Origin: Acidimicrobiales bacterium
Lineage (GTDB): Bacteria; Actinomycetota; Acidimicrobiia; Acidimicrobiales; Bog-793
Length of the DNA stretch: 64,000 bases
Reading direction: 5' to 3'
Assembly: GCA_035294085.1 (NCBI GenBank)
Contig: DATGLP010000018.1
Span: forward strand, 1 to 64,000
Shown here: positions 45,221 to 53,949 of the stretch, piece after piece
How the letters are laid out: each line of letters begins with the position of its first letter
How positions within the stretch are numbered: position 1 is the first letter of the stretch
Translations under genes and position numbers: made by a program
The notes under the pieces: model-generated
The model's input: the letters and a program-made list of their open reading frames with translations, nothing else
What the model was told of the DNA's origin: nothing
Databases searched by the model: none

Positions 45221-46804
45221 TCAGGCCCGGCCGTGCGCAGGATGGTGGTGAGCGGCCGCGCCGATCCCTGCTCCCTCGGGCTCCCCCGTGGCGCGCGACG
45301 GGTGGAGGAGGGGCGGTGGCGCCGGGAGCTCCGGGAGCTTCCCGGTCGCGTGCCATCCCTTCGTGGCGTCCCAGGCGATCGCGTCGGGGAAGAGCTCCTC
45401 GCCCGCCCGGACGGCTGTCTCGACGAGGATCTGCTCGCACTCGGGGGCGACCTGCGCGGGCAGGCCGTAGCTGCGGCAGGCGTAGTCGGCCTCGTAGCCG
45501 CCGTAGGGGTACTCGGCAGCGGTCGGGAAGTACGAGACGATGCCGTTCGTGTAGCCGAGGTAGAGCGTCGGAACGCCCGGCGCCCGCTCCTTCACCGCCA
45601 TCCCGATCTCGGTGAAGATCTCGCCCGGCCCGGTCGCGATGAGCCCGTCGCCGATCCTGACCGCGTTGACCCAGCCCTCGGTTGCTCTCGGAGCGGTCCC
45701 GTCCCGGAGTGCACGCTCCACCTTGCGGGCCCACCCCGCGTGGTACCACGCGACCTTGATCCTTCCGGCGTCGCCGCTCGCCCGAGCCGCCTCGAGCTCG
45801 GCGTCGGCGGCCTGCCGCTGCGCGGCGACCTCGTCGAGCGAGGGGAGCGGGAGCAGCGGGAACGTGACGCGCCGGCGTGTCGCGGCGAGGAGGGGCGCCT
45901 CGGCAGCCTCCTCCTGCCTGCGGTACGCGGAGATCGGCGTCACCGAGCCGTCGTCCTGCCGGACGATCCGGACCGGTGCCGACGGCCGGTCCGCGACGGC
46001 GTGGAGCGCTTCGAGGGCCAGCCGCCGGCCCATGCGCTCGGCCTCCCGTTCGTCGTCGGTGAACGCCACGCGGGGCAGCACGTTGCCGCCGGCCGCCTGC
46101 AGGAAGACGCACTCCCCCCCGGTGATGCGCCGTACCAGCTCCCGAAGCGGCCCCGGGTAGTCCGCCGAGTAGACGGACATGTCGAAGCCGGTCGTGACGG
46201 GGTGGCACCCGTAGGCGACGACGGTCGCGATTGCCGAGTCGTCGGGCCGGCGCGCCTGGAGGACGCCGACGTGGTTGTCGACGAGGTTGTCGGGGTTCCA
46301 CCCGAGGATCGTCCGGCCGCCGACGCGCTCGCGGCGGTTCACGGCGAGGTCGGCCTCGCCGAGCCCCCACACGACGCGCGCCGGCTCGAGCCGCTCGAAC
46401 GCCAGCCGGCAGACGGAGACGACCTTGTCCTGGAGGACGTCGGCGAACGAGCGGACGCGCGCCTCGCGGCGCGCGTCCGGCTCGCCGAGGAGCTCGCCGG
46501 CCCAGCCGCTGCCCGGGGGGGCGAGGTGCGTGTGGCTCCAGTTGAGGACGACGCCGGCCGGGTCGGCGCCGGTCGCGTCGACCACGCGATCGATCAGGTC
46601 GCTGACCTCCGGCTCGCCGACCCCGATCACGTCGACGCCGCAGAGAATCACGCGCCTGCCGTCGGCGTCGAGAGCGATCGCGCTCGTCTCGAGCGGCCAC
46701 GCGCCGTAGCCGGTGGCGGGCAGGCGCTGGCGGACGAAGCCGATCATCGGCAGGCCGAGGGGCGGCTCGAGCGCGAGGCGCGCCGCGCCGGCGTAGAGCG
46801 TCAT
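45221..46804 (-). CDS. Neutral/alkaline ceramidase-like hydrolase
   Basis: 527 residues. The N-terminal domain of neutral ceramidases is recognisable: YAGAARLALEPPLGLPMIGF, VILCGVDVIGV, NWSHTHLAPPGSGWAGELL (zinc His pair), VVAYGCHPVTTG (zinc His) and SADYPGPLRELV. ATGPGEIFTEIGMAVKE and YLGYTNGIVSYFPTAAEYPYGGYE are later conserved segments. No signal peptide, and shorter than secreted ceramidases (~650-750), lacking the C-terminal Ig-like domain. The family hydrolyses N-acyl amide bonds; many bacterial relatives have no known substrate. ATG 46804 with AAGGAGGTG; last gene of the leftward island operon. Confidence 0.78.
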   Translation of the reverse strand: MTLYAGAARLALEPPLGLPMIGFVRQRLPATGYGAWPLETSAIALDADGRRVILCGVDVIGVGEPEVSDLIDRVVDATGADPAGVVLNWSHTHLAPPGSGWAGELLGEPDARREARVRSFADVLQDKVVSVCRLAFERLEPARVVWGLGEADLAVNRRERVGGRTILGWNPDNLVDNHVGVLQARRPDDSAIATVVAYGCHPVTTGFDMSVYSADYPGPLRELVRRITGGECVFLQAAGGNVLPRVAFTDDEREAERMGRRLALEALHAVADRPSAPVRIVRQDDGSVTPISAYRRQEEAAEAPLLAATRRRVTFPLLPLPSLDEVAAQRQAADAELEAARASGDAGRIKVAWYHAGWARKVERALRDGTAPRATEGWVNAVRIGDGLIATGPGEIFTEIGMAVKERAPGVPTLYLGYTNGIVSYFPTAAEYPYGGYEADYACRSYGLPAQVAPECEQILVETAVRAGEELFPDAIAWDATKGWHATGKLPELPAPPPLLHPSRATGEPEGAGIGAAAHHHPAHGRA

Positions 46805-46898: not shown

Positions 46899-49520
46899 TC
46901 ATCGCCCGGGATGCCCGTGCGACCCGAGCGCGCCATCGCGCGACGGCTCGTCGAACGGGGTGGGATCGAGGAAGCGGCCGAGCACGTTGGCCGTGACCCG
47001 CCGGACGTCGTTGCGGTAGCCGTTCACGGGCAGCGAGCCTGCCCAGGCGATCGACCCGACGGAGAAGACCGCACCGCCCGAGGGGAGGGAGAAGAAGACG
47101 ATGTCCGCCCGCACCGGCTCGGGTTCGTCGTCGCTGGCCGGCGGGACCTTGTCGGACCATGACTCGAGCATGTTGTCGAAGTTGTTCGAGTGCGCGAACG
47201 ACGTCGCGAGCCGGACGGCGTGGCGAGGCGTGCCGAGGCTCGGGGCGGCCCGGTCGATCTCGTAGCCGGCCGCCCCGCCCGCGAGCAGCCCGGTCTGACC
47301 GAAGACCTCTCCGCGCACGCCCTCGAAGGCGAAGCCGCACGCCTCTGGTACCGGGAGGCGGCGGTAGGGGCGAGACTCGTCGAAGCCCATCGTGACGTAG
47401 GTCGAGCCCGACAGGCGCGCCGGCGGGCGGCCGACCTTCTGCAGCTCCCCGCCAGGTGCCGGGTTGACGTTGTACACGGACTCGCTGTAGTCCACGGTCC
47501 ACAGCGTCTTCGCACCGGGCCGCCGGACCTCGACCGTGCCCGTGCGTTCGGGGTGGAACTCGGCGTTCCAGTAGAAGGCGTTGCCGCCGAGCACCATCAG
47601 CCGTCCGCCGCTGCGGACGTAGTCCTCGAGGGCGTCGAGCATCCTCCAGCTGTAGTACTCGGGGTGGGTCGCGACGATCGTGACGGCGTAGCCGTCGAGC
47701 GCGGCGGGTCCCTCGCGGTGCAGGTCCTCGTCGGTGAGGACGTCGAAGGGGACGCCCTCGTGCTCGAGCCAGTCGACGAGCAGGAGGTCGAGGCAGAACT
47801 TGTAGATGCGGCCTCTCGGCCGGAAGTTCGTGACGGGCCGGCGGAGCGAGGAGTACAGCACCGCGCTGCCGTCGCGGTGGACGTCGTAGGTCGACCTCCC
47901 GAGCTCGGGCAGCTCGAGCAGGAGCAGGTCCGTGTCGTCGAGGACGATGAGGCGCCCCTGGTTCATCTCGTTGAAGGGGGCCCGGACCCGCAGGTGCATG
48001 TTGGCGTAGGCGGCGTACGTCGCGGTCGGCACGAGGTAGGCGACGCGGTTGCGCCGCGCGCGTGGTCGGACGAAGAAGGGCACCCGCCACTCGTGGCGAC
48101 CGGCGACGAGGCGGAGCGCGTAGCAGCCGCTCGGCCAGTCGGGCGGCACCGTGAGCACGTGGGTCGCGTCCCAGCCGGCGTCGGCGAGGTCGTCCTCGTG
48201 GAAGTGCACCGCCGCGTACTGCTCGGGCGCGGCGCGCCAGTCGATCTGGGAGCCGTCCCAGTTCGAGCTCTTCACGGCCCGCGCCGGCAGCTGGTGCGCC
48301 GAGGCCCCGTGGCCGTTGCCGCTCGCGTCCGCGACGTGCTCGGTGTCGGCGATGCCGTGGGCGAAGTCCCAGTCGAGGAGCGCGGCGCCCACCTCTTCGT
48401 TCGGACCGCCGCGCGCGACGCGCTCGGTCGCGGTGGCGTCGAGGCGCTGCGTGAAGAGCGTGAGGCGCTCCACCTTGCCGTTGAAGTGGTTGCACGCCGG
48501 GGCCACGCCCGGAACCCCGGGCGCGTTCGCCTGCGCCCCCAGGACCACCCGGAAGTCTGCTAGCGCCTCGTCGCCTTGCGTCGAGCCGGCCAGCGTGCCG
48601 ACGGTCGCGTCCGCCGACCAGTCGAGCTCGAGGCCGCGGTCGCCCCGGGCCCGAGCGTGCAGGGCGGCGCCGCCCGAGGCCAGGTCGACCTCGCAGACGA
48701 CGCCCGCCCAGGCACCAGCGACGAGCGGCGCGTCGAGCCTGGCCGTCACGCCGTGCGCGACGAGCTCGAGGGCGAGCGTCCCGTCCTCGACGTAGAGCAG
48801 GACGCGCTGGGTCTCGGCCTCGAGGTCGAGCACGGTCTGGCGATGGGGGGCGTCCGGGAGGGTCGGGAGGATCCCGAGCCGGAACGAGAAGGTGGCCGGC
48901 AGGGGCACGCGGGCGTCGCTGCAGAGGTAGGAGCCGGGGTGGATCGGCTGGCGGCGACCGTCGTACCCGCCGCTGAGCGCGCAGTCGACGACCTCCTCGC
49001 GAAACGGCGGACCGTCCGGCCCGACGTCCGGACAGTGGAGGCGCACGACGTCGGCCCGGTAGCGAGGGGCGTCGCAGCTGACGCAGAACGAGATCTGATC
49101 GCCGGCGACGACGCTCTGGGCGCTGGCGTAGGCGAGGAGCGGCAGGCGACCGCTCGTGGTCGTCGCCACGCCCGCCACGGGCTCGACCTGATCCTCGAGG
49201 GGCCAGCTGCCGAAGAGCTCCCGCCAGCGGACCTCGAACACGTAGCGCTCGGCTGCCAGGAGGTCCCTGAAGGTGCGGCCGCTCAGCTCGATCGGCAGGA
49301 GCGAGGGCTCCGGGCCGAGGCGCGCGAGCTCCCAGACGCGGTGCGGCTCGCGCACGTAGAGGAAGTGCTTGCCCGCGTCGGGCGCCGAGCGCATGACGTT
49401 CAGGAGGTACTGCAGGTCGGGCGTGTGGCTCCCGAATGGGCGGGCGAGGAACTCCTCGGCGAGGTCCCGCCGGCTGCCGTGGATGCCGCGGCGCTCGAGG
49501 GCTTCCCTGCGCTGGCGCAC
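46899..49520 (-). CDS. N,N-dimethylformamidase-like protein, small and large subunits fused
   Basis: 873 residues. From about residue 480 the C-terminal half matches the DMFase large-subunit domain: RNRVAYLVPTATYAAYANMH, GRIYKFCLDLLLVDWLEHEG, VTIVATHPEYYSWRMLDALEDY, GGRLMVLGGNAFYWNAEFHP. Before it lies a concanavalin/LamG-like region (about 200-400). The first ~115 residues (EEFLARPFGSHTPDLQYLLN, SAPDAGKHFLYVREPHRVWE) resemble the separate DMFase small subunit as I recall it. DMFase uses a Tyr/Tyr/Glu-bound iron to hydrolyse formamides and is normally two proteins. GTG start after GAGGAG. Substrate here unknown; an amide is the best guess. Confidence 0.75.
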   Translation of the reverse strand: MRQRREALERRGIHGSRRDLAEEFLARPFGSHTPDLQYLLNVMRSAPDAGKHFLYVREPHRVWELARLGPEPSLLPIELSGRTFRDLLAAERYVFEVRWRELFGSWPLEDQVEPVAGVATTTSGRLPLLAYASAQSVVAGDQISFCVSCDAPRYRADVVRLHCPDVGPDGPPFREEVVDCALSGGYDGRRQPIHPGSYLCSDARVPLPATFSFRLGILPTLPDAPHRQTVLDLEAETQRVLLYVEDGTLALELVAHGVTARLDAPLVAGAWAGVVCEVDLASGGAALHARARGDRGLELDWSADATVGTLAGSTQGDEALADFRVVLGAQANAPGVPGVAPACNHFNGKVERLTLFTQRLDATATERVARGGPNEEVGAALLDWDFAHGIADTEHVADASGNGHGASAHQLPARAVKSSNWDGSQIDWRAAPEQYAAVHFHEDDLADAGWDATHVLTVPPDWPSGCYALRLVAGRHEWRVPFFVRPRARRNRVAYLVPTATYAAYANMHLRVRAPFNEMNQGRLIVLDDTDLLLLELPELGRSTYDVHRDGSAVLYSSLRRPVTNFRPRGRIYKFCLDLLLVDWLEHEGVPFDVLTDEDLHREGPAALDGYAVTIVATHPEYYSWRMLDALEDYVRSGGRLMVLGGNAFYWNAEFHPERTGTVEVRRPGAKTLWTVDYSESVYNVNPAPGGELQKVGRPPARLSGSTYVTMGFDESRPYRRLPVPEACGFAFEGVRGEVFGQTGLLAGGAAGYEIDRAAPSLGTPRHAVRLATSFAHSNNFDNMLESWSDKVPPASDDEPEPVRADIVFFSLPSGGAVFSVGSIAWAGSLPVNGYRNDVRRVTANVLGRFLDPTPFDEPSRDGALGSHGHPGR

Positions 49521-49645: not shown

Positions 49646-50788
49646 CTACCCGCTTCGCGCCGGGAGGCTCAGGTAGGTGGGGACGCCGCGGTCCAAGGTC
49701 ATCCGGACCTCGAGGCGCGCCGCCCCGTGCAGCACGTGGCCCCAGGCGTCCTCCCACGAGCAGGGCTCCCGGACCACCTCGAGCACGACCATCGTCGCGG
49801 GGGAGCCGGGCCTGAGCGACGCGAGGCTGTCCCGACCGATGGCGCGCGCCGGCGCGATCGTCGCGAGGCGGACGAGGTCGCGCACGTCGCAGCCGAGCGC
49901 CAGGAACCGTGAGAGCACCTGCGGGAGGCCCGTGACGCGGTCCGCGCTGTACGCATGGAGGTCCGAGCTGATCGTGTCCGGCCCGAAGCCGTGCGAGAGC
50001 ATCGCCGCCGCGACCGACGCGTCGAAGGATCGCGCGCCGTGGCCGACGTCGAAGAGCACGCCGCGCTCTCGGGCCGCAACGGCCTCCGGGATCGGCCGGC
50101 CCGCGTCGTCGACGAGGCGGTTGCCGAACCCCGTGAAGCAGTGCGTGAGGATGTCGCCGGCCCGCAGCTGGCCGAGGACCTCGGCGATACCCGGAGGCTG
50201 CTCGGCGACGTGCACCATGAGCGGCACACCGAGGCGATCCGCGGCCTCCCGAGCGATGCGCAGCGGTGCCAGCCCGTTGGTTCCGACCGCGTCCGCCGAC
50301 GCCCTGACCTTGATGCCGACGAGCACGTCGGCGTGGCGCTCGAAGCAGCGGAGGCACTCGTCGAGCGAGCAGTAGCGCAGGTCGTTGCACTCCCCGGCCA
50401 GACGGATGCTCGTCGTCCCGATCGTCGAGACGTTGAGGAAGGCGAGAACCTGACCGCGTGCCGGCTCGATGCAGGCGCGACGGAAGGCGTCGAAGAGGTG
50501 CGCTCCTGCGCTCCCAGCGTCGACGAAGGTGGTCGTGCCCGCGGGCGGACCGTAGCGGCCGGCGTCGACGCCCAGGTCCTGGCCCGCGAAGACGTGGGCA
50601 TGGAGATCGACCAGGCCCGGCGCGACGATGCACCCCGTCGCGGCGACGGTGCGCGCCGCCAGAGCAGGGTCGATGGAGGGCGCGACGTCGAGGATTCTGC
50701 CGCCGGCGATCGCGACGTCGCACGGCGCGTCGACGCCGCGTGCGGGATCGATGACCCGGCCACCGCGGACGAGGAGGTCAGCGAGCAC
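49646..50788 (-). CDS. Amidohydrolase/deacetylase-family metallohydrolase
   Basis: 380 residues from GTG 50788. A small beta domain (LLVRGGRVIDPARGV) precedes the barrel: IVAPGLVDLHAHVF (H-x-H), LVGIKVRAS (Lys expected to be carbamylated), LMVHVAEQPP and LTHCFTGFG (His ligands), and ISSDLHAYS (Asp). This is the dihydroorotase-like deacetylase group that removes acyl groups from N-acyl amino compounds or opens cyclic amides. The frame is open to 50821 but GTG 50788 fits the fold start. 125 bases before the DMFase-like gene and ~115 after the transporter ATPase, same strand. Confidence 0.8.
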   Translation of the reverse strand: MLADLLVRGGRVIDPARGVDAPCDVAIAGGRILDVAPSIDPALAARTVAATGCIVAPGLVDLHAHVFAGQDLGVDAGRYGPPAGTTTFVDAGSAGAHLFDAFRRACIEPARGQVLAFLNVSTIGTTSIRLAGECNDLRYCSLDECLRCFERHADVLVGIKVRASADAVGTNGLAPLRIAREAADRLGVPLMVHVAEQPPGIAEVLGQLRAGDILTHCFTGFGNRLVDDAGRPIPEAVAARERGVLFDVGHGARSFDASVAAAMLSHGFGPDTISSDLHAYSADRVTGLPQVLSRFLALGCDVRDLVRLATIAPARAIGRDSLASLRPGSPATMVVLEVVREPCSWEDAWGHVLHGAARLEVRMTLDRGVPTYLSLPARSG

Positions 50789-50902
50789 TGCGGGCCGCGC
50801 CGTTCGCGGCGCGCGGCGCACCGGGCCGGCCGCCTCGCCCGAGGCTCGGGCGTGCCCGGCACCGGTCCCCCTCGTACCTCGCCTCGGTGCCCTCGCGCGA
50901 CG

Positions 50903-51709
50903 TCACGCGCCGACGATGGAGCGGACGAGCCGTTCCGTGTCGAACTCTCCCCGCCGCAGGTCGTCGACCTTGACCCCGTGGCGCATCACGACGACGTGAT
51001 CGGCGAGGTCGACGACGTGGCTCATGACGTGGCTGATCATGACGACCGCGATGCCGCGGGCGACCGCCTCTCTCACCAGGCCGAGCACCGCGCCCGCCTC
51101 CTTCACGCCGAGCGCGGCGGTCGGCTCGTCCATCACGAGCACCTGGCTCGCCCAGAAGATGGCGCGGGCGATGGCGATCGTCTGGCGCTGTCCGCCGGAC
51201 ATGCGCCCGACGGGAACCCCGCGCAGGCGCGGGATGCGGATCTGCAGGTCGCGCAGCTGCCGCCGGGCGAGCTCGGTCATCTCCCGGTCGGCGAGGCGCC
51301 GCAGGAAGGGCAGGTGGAAGGCCGGGCGCACCATCTCGCGGCCGAGGAAGAGGTTCTCGACGACGTCGAGGTTCGGGGCGAGGGCGAGCTCCTGGTAGAC
51401 GGCCTCGACGCCGGCCAGCCGCGCCTCGAGGGGATCGGTGAAGGACACCGGCTTGCCGAAGAGGAACAGCTCCCCGCTGTCGGGCTTGAGGGCGCCGGTG
51501 AGGATCTTGGCGACCGTGGACTTCCCGGCCCCGTTGTCGCCGACGATGGCGAGGAGCTCGCCGCGAGCGACCTGCAGGGAGACGTCGCGGCACGCCTCGA
51601 CGGGTCCGTAGCGCTTGGACAGGCCTCGAGCCTCGAACACGACCTGGCCGTCGGCATCCCCGAGGGCACCGACGGCGCCGGCGGGCGCGGTGTGGTCGCT
51701 CGCCGTCAT
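50903..51709 (-). CDS. Sugar-type ABC transporter, single ATP-binding protein
   Basis: 268 residues. VVFEARGLSKRYGPVEACRDVSL, LLAIVGDNGAGKSTVAKILTG (Walker A), YQELALAPNLDVVENLFLGRE (Q-loop and family helix), GRMSGGQRQTIAIARAI (signature), QVLVMDEPTAALGVKEA (Walker B) and VVMISHVMSHVV (switch His). RbsA-like proteins usually carry two ATPase domains; this is the one-domain FrcA-like form. It powers uptake through the permease whose stop overlaps its ATG. Confidence 0.9.
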   Translation of the reverse strand: MTASDHTAPAGAVGALGDADGQVVFEARGLSKRYGPVEACRDVSLQVARGELLAIVGDNGAGKSTVAKILTGALKPDSGELFLFGKPVSFTDPLEARLAGVEAVYQELALAPNLDVVENLFLGREMVRPAFHLPFLRRLADREMTELARRQLRDLQIRIPRLRGVPVGRMSGGQRQTIAIARAIFWASQVLVMDEPTAALGVKEAGAVLGLVREAVARGIAVVMISHVMSHVVDLADHVVVMRHGVKVDDLRRGEFDTERLVRSIVGA

Positions 51710-52758
51710 ACGAAGGTCGACTGCTGGCTACGACGACGGTACTCGTCGACGACCACCGCCACGAGGAGCGCCCCCCCCTGCGTCACGTACTGCCAGGAGA
51801 TCGGCACGTTCTCGAGCAGGAGGCCGTCCAGGACGACGCCGAGCAGGACCACGCCGAGGAAGGAGCCGAAGACCGAGCCGGACCCACCGCCGAGCGCGGT
51901 GCCGCCGATGATGACCGCGGCGATGACCGTGAGCTCGACGCCGAAGGCTTCCTGCGAGTTGCCCGAGCCGGTGTAGCCAGCGAGGACGATGCCGCTGATC
52001 GCGGAGAACAGCCCGCTCAGCACGTACACGATGAGCCGCTGGCGGGCCACGTTGACGCCAGCGAGGCGCGCCGCGGACCCGTTCGGCGTGCCGCCGATCG
52101 CCCTCACCTGCAGGCCGAAGCGAGTACGAGAGAGGATCCAGCCGGTGACGAGGAACGAGACGATGACGAGGATCCCCGGGACGGGCACGTGCAGGACCAT
52201 GCCGCGACCGAACTCGACGAAGGTTCGGTTCGTGATCAGGATGTCGCCTGCCGCGCCGCCGCCGGCGAGGTAGGACGCCCCGTAGAGCAGGAACTGGGTC
52301 GCGATCGTGGCGATGAGCGCGTTGATGCCGATACGCACGATGACCAACCCGTTGACCAAGCCGATGCCGAGCCCGACCGCCAGGGTGATGGCGATCGCGG
52401 CCCACCAGGCGAGGTGGTACTGGGACATCAGCTGCGCCGCGATGACCGTGCTCAGCGACATGTTGGCGCCGATCGACAGATCGATACCGCCCGCGATCAG
52501 CACGATCGTGGTGATCGAGGCGCAGATGCCGATGTAGGCCTGGGCACGCACGATGTTCGCGACGTTGCCTGCGGTGGCGAAGTAGGGGCTGAGCAGGGAG
52601 AAGGCAACGCAGACGGCGACGATCGCGACGAGGAGCCCCGCCCAGTTGGCGTGGTAGAGGAGGCCGACGGTTCGCCGCAGCAGCGGCTGAGGAGCTTCGG
52701 CGTCCTCAGCCGCTGCTGCGCTCGGCTCCGGCAGACCGACGGGAGCTTGGACCGTCAT
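51706..52758 (-). CDS. Sugar-type ABC transporter permease (RbsC/FrcC family)
   Basis: 350 residues with about ten hydrophobic segments. The family signature is TIVLIAGGIDLSIGANMSLSTVIAAQL, with VNGLVIVRIGINALIATIATQFLLYG and VRAIGGTPNGSAARLAGVNV later. A polar ~30-residue N-terminus precedes the first helix. ATG start. Forms the channel with the ATPase gene (ATGA overlap) and receives substrate from the binding protein encoded just upstream. Confidence 0.92.
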   Translation of the reverse strand: MTVQAPVGLPEPSAAAAEDAEAPQPLLRRTVGLLYHANWAGLLVAIVAVCVAFSLLSPYFATAGNVANIVRAQAYIGICASITTIVLIAGGIDLSIGANMSLSTVIAAQLMSQYHLAWWAAIAITLAVGLGIGLVNGLVIVRIGINALIATIATQFLLYGASYLAGGGAAGDILITNRTFVEFGRGMVLHVPVPGILVIVSFLVTGWILSRTRFGLQVRAIGGTPNGSAARLAGVNVARQRLIVYVLSGLFSAISGIVLAGYTGSGNSQEAFGVELTVIAAVIIGGTALGGGSGSVFGSFLGVVLLGVVLDGLLLENVPISWQYVTQGGALLVAVVVDEYRRRSQQSTFV

Positions 52759-52833: not shown

Positions 52834-53949
52834 TCAGCTGCCGCGGCTGTAGACCCGCGTGAGCGAGAACACCTCGGTCGGGACGGGGCGACCCGCGAGG
52901 ATGTCCTCGGCCATCGGGACGAGGATCCTACCGGCGGTGGCGTAGCCGATGTTGACCGAGGCCTTGAAGGCGCTCCCCGGACCCATCGCCGCGAGACCGA
53001 TGGACTCGACGCCGACGCCGACGATCGCCGACCCAGTGGCGCGCCCGGCGGTCTCGAGCGCCTCGTTGTAGCCGACGCCGTTGATATCGGAGATCGAGCA
53101 GCCGAGGACGTGCTGGACCGAGGGGTGGGCAGTCAGCCACGACGCCGCGGCCGACTCGGTGAGCGGGGTCGTGCTCGACGTGATCGCCTCGGCGGAGGTC
53201 TGCAGTCCTGGCATCAGCTTCCTCAGCGTGGCGAAGCAGTCGGTGACGCGCTCGTTGATCGCCGCGAGGGCGGGGATGACGACGCCGAACGCCTCGGTGC
53301 CCGAGGCCTTCCAGCCGTGCTTCTTCGCGTACTGCGCCAGCCACACCCCCTCGGCGTGGCCGATGGCAGCGTTGTCGGCGCCGAACTCGACCGTGTTCAC
53401 AGACGTCGACGGCGTCGAGATCTTGATGACCGGTGTGCACCTGAAGGTCGAGTTCAGCTGACCATCGATCGTCGTGTCCACGTTGTAGCTGATGACGACC
53501 GCCGGGTGCTCGAGCGCGAGGGACTCCGCGGCCGCGATCGCGTCCGGCTCGCTCGGGTACTGGTAGTTCACCATGTGGAAGGCGAAGCCGGCGCGCTCGG
53601 CGGTGTTCTGGATGTTCAGGTTCATGATGTTGAGGAACTGGCTGTTCTCGTTCTGCGTGCCGTAGCCGAGGAGGAGCCGCTTGGGCTGCTTGCGCAGGAC
53701 GGCGAGGTAGCGACGCGGGTGCTTCCTCGTCGGCACGAACCGACAGCGCGAGCGGTTCCAGACGACCCAGGTCGAGGCGTTGCCGCTCGTCTGGAAGGTG
53801 CCGAGCGTCGCCGGCTGGGAGGAGCCGGCGTGGCGCGAGCGGACGGTGGCGCCCGCCGCGGCCGAGCCCGCCGCAAGGCCGGCGGCCACGAGACCGGCGG
53901 CCACGAGCGCGACCGGTGTCCGGAAACGGTGGACCGAATGCAGCTTCAT
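52834..53949 (-). CDS. Periplasmic-type substrate-binding protein of the ABC importer
   Basis: 371 residues. KLHSVHRFRTPVALVAAGLVAAGLAAGSAAA is a Sec signal peptide with an A-x-A end and no lipobox Cys. The mature protein has the two-lobed sugar-binding fold: LLLGYGTQNENSQFLNIMNLNIQNTAERAGF, VVISYNVDTTIDGQL, FGADNAAIGHAEGVWLAQYA, HPSVQHVLGCSISDINGVGYNEAL. It is only distantly like ribose or fructose binders, so the ligand may not be a simple sugar. ATG 53949 follows AAGGGGGG. First gene of the leftward island operon. Confidence 0.85.
   Translation of the reverse strand: MKLHSVHRFRTPVALVAAGLVAAGLAAGSAAAGATVRSRHAGSSQPATLGTFQTSGNASTWVVWNRSRCRFVPTRKHPRRYLAVLRKQPKRLLLGYGTQNENSQFLNIMNLNIQNTAERAGFAFHMVNYQYPSEPDAIAAAESLALEHPAVVISYNVDTTIDGQLNSTFRCTPVIKISTPSTSVNTVEFGADNAAIGHAEGVWLAQYAKKHGWKASGTEAFGVVIPALAAINERVTDCFATLRKLMPGLQTSAEAITSSTTPLTESAAASWLTAHPSVQHVLGCSISDINGVGYNEALETAGRATGSAIVGVGVESIGLAAMGPGSAFKASVNIGYATAGRILVPMAEDILAGRPVPTEVFSLTRVYSRGS

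Follow-up and report, generated by a model that had tools for sequence, protein, structure and literature searches.

The characterised N,N-dimethylformamidases (DMFases) are products of two genes and consist of two kinds of polypeptide (alpha2beta2). The locus described here raises the question whether both subunits of such an enzyme are encoded as a single chain. The window, a stretch of 64,000 nucleotides from an Acidimicrobiales bacterium (contig DATGLP010000018.1), carries on its minus strand an open frame (46899..49520) that starts with a GTG at 49520, specifies 873 amino acids and reads to a stop at 46899 with zero internal stops. A consensus Shine-Dalgarno sequence, GAGGAG, is located upstream of the GTG with a spacing of 7 nt. 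As the GC content of the window is 76%, long open frames come cheap in it; here, the protein itself has matches. A preliminary description had placed a single 873-residue protein with fused small and large DMFase subunits at these coordinates, with the strand unstated. The coordinates and the fusion are both borne out. The two modules are present in a single frame, and the motifs cited at the time (PFG, LQ, HPEYYSW and GGNAFYWNAEF) were all found in the protein. The two-polypeptide arrangement of the characterised enzymes was not found, as the junction is stop-free and the frame continuous. It is highly probable (about 0.9) that the gene specifies an Fe-amidase with a small domain (residues 1-107), a flexible linker (108-124) and a complete large subunit (125-873) on one polypeptide. 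The architecture is a recurrent variant, in an enzyme family whose existence and chemistry are already known. The fused form was not described in the papers naming dimethylformamidase that were searched, for the most part by title and abstract.

The small (alpha) subunit domain occupies 49200..49520 on the minus strand. No family was matched in the Pfam search of this N-terminal part. When residues 1-115 were compared alone with the PDB, the top match was the small subunit of Paracoccus DMFase (6lvb_B) at E=0.012. A single-sequence match of this weakness could also arise if the N-terminus were some other, unrelated helical domain of merely similar composition, but a profile built from window residues 1-110 and seven stand-alone small subunits matched 6lvb_B with E=8.4e-7, and the next match, at 0.58, was nearly six orders of magnitude away. 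The domain also shares 44-46% identity with ORFs found in the dmfA1 position beside the large gene, and the characterised dmfA1 of Paracoccus aminophilus aligns with it throughout. Stand-alone small-subunit ORFs of the closest relatives (113-136 aa), which lie directly upstream of the large gene, gave E values of 1e-23 to 1e-26. An unrelated domain is thus hardly conceivable and is refuted at the level of sequence; at that level the N-terminus is settled as a homologue of the DMFase small subunit, in agreement with the preliminary description. In the account of the Paracoccus enzyme (parDMFase) used here (PMC7686228), the small subunit has an undescribed fold of unknown origin. It packs mainly on domain III of the large subunit and helps to form the substrate entrance. 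The same account reports no activity for the large subunit on its own, and proposes that the small subunit serves stabilisation and substrate entry. Almost all of the plasmid records matched (H1, H3, H20-H31) label the DMFase small subunit a "hypothetical protein"; small-subunit profiles would name such proteins where they adjoin DMFase-like large-subunit genes in public plasmids.

The large (beta) subunit (residues 125-873) is encoded by 46902..49148 on the minus strand, and a complete DMFase-type large subunit spans residues 125-861. Residues 129-870 matched the parDMFase large subunit (6lvb_A) with E=5.2e-109, and the Pfam family DMFA2_C (PF20254) was matched with 1.4e-81 and 275 bits against a cut-off of 27, so that the large-subunit assignment of the C-terminal part made in the preliminary description stands. 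Domain borders were transferred by alignment from parDMFase, using the definitions given in PMC7686228. They place domain I at approximately 129-193 and 446-489, the pentraxin/LamG-like domain II at approximately 194-445 and the catalytic domain III at approximately 490-861. The LamG-like middle region noticed earlier had no Pfam match in the window protein itself. It is supported through homologues that match Laminin_G_3, with 28.6 bits in G1030 and, just under the cut-off of 27.6, 25.3 bits in G868; domain II of parDMFase is described as a pentraxin fold (PMC7686228). AlphaFold models of the full protein and of the small domain, built from two-row alignments (window and L034), had mean pLDDT values of 45 and 32, too low for a search by fold.

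The iron site was mapped by alignment with parDMFase. The two tyrosines and one glutamate that bind iron there have been kept in the window protein: Y399 corresponds to Y505 (48006..48008), Y440 to Y545 (47886..47888) and E521 to E621 (47658..47660), all on the minus strand. The essential H519 corresponds to H619 (47664..47666) and the active-site N547 to N647 (47580..47582), on the same strand, and with these every mapped iron and catalytic residue is retained. Y440A and E521A are each reported to inactivate parDMFase (PMC7686228). Since Y399, Y440, E521, H519 and N547 all have counterparts, the Fe(III) chemistry is expected to be the same as in parDMFase. Y505, Y545 and E621 would hold the Fe(III), which would serve as Lewis acid towards both water and the amide carbonyl, assisted by H619 and N647. 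By analogy with parDMFase, the fused small domain would pack in cis on catalytic domain III, stabilising it and forming part of the substrate entrance, and the fusion may turn the assembly into a homodimer or homotetramer built from a single kind of chain, the stoichiometry being fixed at 1:1.

The in-frame linker (residues 108-124; 49149..49199, minus strand) replaces the stop/start overlap of split relatives. The small and large genes overlap through GTGA in six of seven split relatives, and a short gap separates them in G272. The window junction contains zero stops in all three frames, and is 31 nt longer between the flanking conserved codons than that of the six relatives with the overlap. 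The GTGA overlap explains how a fusion could arise. Alternatively, the locus might be an ordinary two-gene pair whose stop codon was lost through faulty sequencing or assembly. The genome is fragmented (31 contigs), the exact gene has been seen in one genome only, and one substitution, at W106 or Q111 for instance, could be enough to mask a stop. A lost or gained base cannot account for the junction, since there is no stop in any frame, 31 nt of in-frame linker are additional and coding-frame GC3 is continuous (0.97 in the small part, 0.88 in the linker and 0.95 in the large part); only a miscalled stop could.

The occurrence of similar fusions elsewhere bears on the same point. A search of the order with the small-subunit profile returned seven genomes of family f150 and G1030, and a family search with the whole protein added G416 and G421, so that small-large fusions are found in ten further genomes of the order. 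In family f150 the gene is present in 7/9 genomes and fused in 7/7, one of which (G868) is an assembly of three contigs. Three of the ten other fusions are incomplete: those of G421 and G899 are cut off by the contig end, and that of G912 (L069, G912:C595) appears to be interrupted or rearranged within its large part, close to the end of a contig. The f150 linker varies in length by whole codons only. In five f150 genomes, the small domain has a dN/dS of about 0.06-0.18, the large part one of 0.11-0.15 and the linker one of about 0.2-1.0. As judged from these ratios, purifying selection acts on the two modules and the linker is drifting, which is the pattern of selection on one translated chain. 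With the open junction, the extra linker, the continuous GC3, the recurrence and the whole-codon indels all against it, an error origin is very improbable and was rejected. The sequences themselves establish that both modules are present, that the frame is continuous, that the iron and catalytic residues are retained and that the fusion recurs within the order.

One relative was found in the search of genome contigs, and none in the search of viral contigs. Some further candidates for fusions were set aside. The seeming fusions on Halalkalicoccus and Aminobacter plasmids are separate genes with an in-frame stop between them. A copy on contig C31 of the window's own genome appeared to have its small domain fused in a long frame; the preceding frame reads as non-coding, and the copy was counted as split.

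A free large subunit may also be made from the fused gene, either by an internal start at the in-frame GTG codons of the linker (V115, V118) or by cleavage of the linker, in which case the enzyme would be partly two-chain. In six split relatives the large subunit begins with a GTG at the equivalent position. No good Shine-Dalgarno sequence precedes the V115 and V118 codons, whereas the fused start has one, and the linkers differ in the other fusions. A partly two-chain enzyme is considered unlikely, and the single chain is the preferred product.

In the tree of large subunits, a fully supported clade unites the window protein with the f150 fusions, the split G272 pair and five split f39/f50 pairs. 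A second clade with full support, apart from the first, is made up of G1030, G416 and G421. Approximately unbiased (AU) tests rejected the grouping of all fused proteins as one clade (p=5.5e-6) and of the window with f150 (p=4.9e-5), these p-values being somewhat optimistic as the groups were picked after the first tree had been viewed. The first of these tests rejects the idea that all fusions go back to one event with no later loss. On this tree at least three switches between the split and fused states are needed, and fusion was gained repeatedly, or gained and lost. The proposal that the fused proteins define a new branch was not upheld, as they do not form one clade and split pairs lie inside that of the window.

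The closest relatives are the split pairs of sister orders (G253, G268, G272, G274, G129, G176 and G237), whose large part shares 47-48% identity with that of the window; they differ in having two genes. The fusions of f150 (seven genomes), G1030, G416 and G421 have the same small-linker-large order in one frame, with linkers of other sequence and of 16-55 residues, compared with about 20 to the equivalent point in the window, and do not form one clade with it. parDMFase (PDB 6lvb; P. aminophilus dmfA1/dmfA2) shares the small and large modules, DMFA2_C, the two-Tyr-one-Glu ligands and the His519/Asn547 equivalents, but is made of two chains, and the identity in the catalytic region is about 37.5%. 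N-acetyl-(R)-beta-phenylalanine acylase (PDB 8huy, 8i5a) consists of one DMFase-like large-subunit chain in which the ligand residues are the same; its catalytic region is about 38% identical to that of the window protein. Its deposited chain (772-776 aa) is without a small-subunit domain, unlike the window protein, which carries one in fused form.

The genes surrounding the fused gene are all on the minus strand. An amidohydrolase/deacetylase-type metallohydrolase lies upstream (49646..50821; PF01979, 4e-12; NF006689, 2e-110, with 368.8 bits against a cut-off of 371), and its spacing and strand indicate that it probably belongs to the same operon. Farther upstream lie the components of an ABC importer: an ATPase of the CUT2 sugar type with one nucleotide-binding domain (50903..51709), a BPD_transp_2 permease (51706..52758) and a periplasmic binding protein, Peripla_BP_4 (52834..53949, with the start chosen at MKLHSVHRF). 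Downstream, a hydrolase-like ORF (45221..46804) has its own strong Shine-Dalgarno sequence, AAGGAGG, and an SHTH motif. This ORF had no Pfam or PDB match and, by eye only, resembles neutral ceramidase. The only fusion besides that of the window with neighbours examined, in G868, is accompanied by an Opp-type importer, PTE, SDR and an amidohydrolase. Two other DMFase-like loci were seen in the window's genome. The split pair on contig C31 (L082:2984-6803) adjoins an amidohydrolase homologous (6e-67) to the neighbour of the fused gene, a repeated gene partnership. A third, short DMFA2_C protein is encoded on contig C15 (L083:7568-11128), a locus in which no small-subunit match was found. By eye it seems to carry a Tat/lipoprotein-type signal, and it is possibly an exported relative.

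These surroundings bear on the substrate. The pocket residue F693 of parDMFase, which projects into the pocket from the adjacent large subunit, is aligned with D790 in the window protein (47151..47153, minus strand), a position that is approximate as it falls in a gappy loop. In the window's clade, all members that cover this poorly aligned position have an Asp there, and the split pairs of sister orders share it. The operon and the tree subgroup also differ from those of parDMFase. An amide specificity different from that of parDMFase is plausible in view of the clade-wide Asp opposite F693 and of the place in the tree outside the parDMFase subgroup, as the preliminary description had proposed. 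Because of these two features and the importer and amidohydrolase neighbours, the substrate is probably an imported amide, such as an N-acyl amine or amino acid handled by a catabolic operon, rather than DMF. The retention of all mapped catalytic residues would also suit a true N,N-dimethylformamidase, which splits DMF into formate and dimethylamine, but the Asp, the tree position and the neighbours all speak against it, no dimethylamine or formate genes being found among the neighbouring genes examined. Such an activity is quite improbable, and the imported amide is preferred.

The small subunit is also found joined to a different partner. In Rhizobium sp. NIBRBAC000502774 plasmid pMK-2 (L046:8603-10258) and in G301 (L074:9588-11234), a BPD_transp_2 ABC permease carries a C-terminal DMFase small-subunit domain, and the large gene adjoins it. 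As in the window, the small domain is fused; unlike in the window, its partner is an importer. This arrangement suggests an amidase tethered to its own importer, and it may be more surprising than the small-large fusion. G301 also carries a tandem second large-subunit paralogue (L074:4731-6998), in which the five mapped iron and catalytic positions all carry other residues (E, L, A, Y, G); as judged from these replacements, it is likely to be a catalytically dead partner.

It can tentatively be suggested, as a possibility rather than an expectation, that the small subunit is a mobile docking or gating module that has been repeatedly rewired, occurring on its own, within the catalytic chain in at least two separate lineages and at the C-terminus of an importer permease, and that some DMFase-type amidases would accordingly be importer-coupled complexes which take their substrate on cell entry. 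Natural fusions reveal which partner the small subunit serves. They are also ready-made single-gene constructs for a class of enzymes that hydrolyses very stable amides, and the fused form opens the little-understood small subunit to direct study, as the linker can be moved, cut or deleted.
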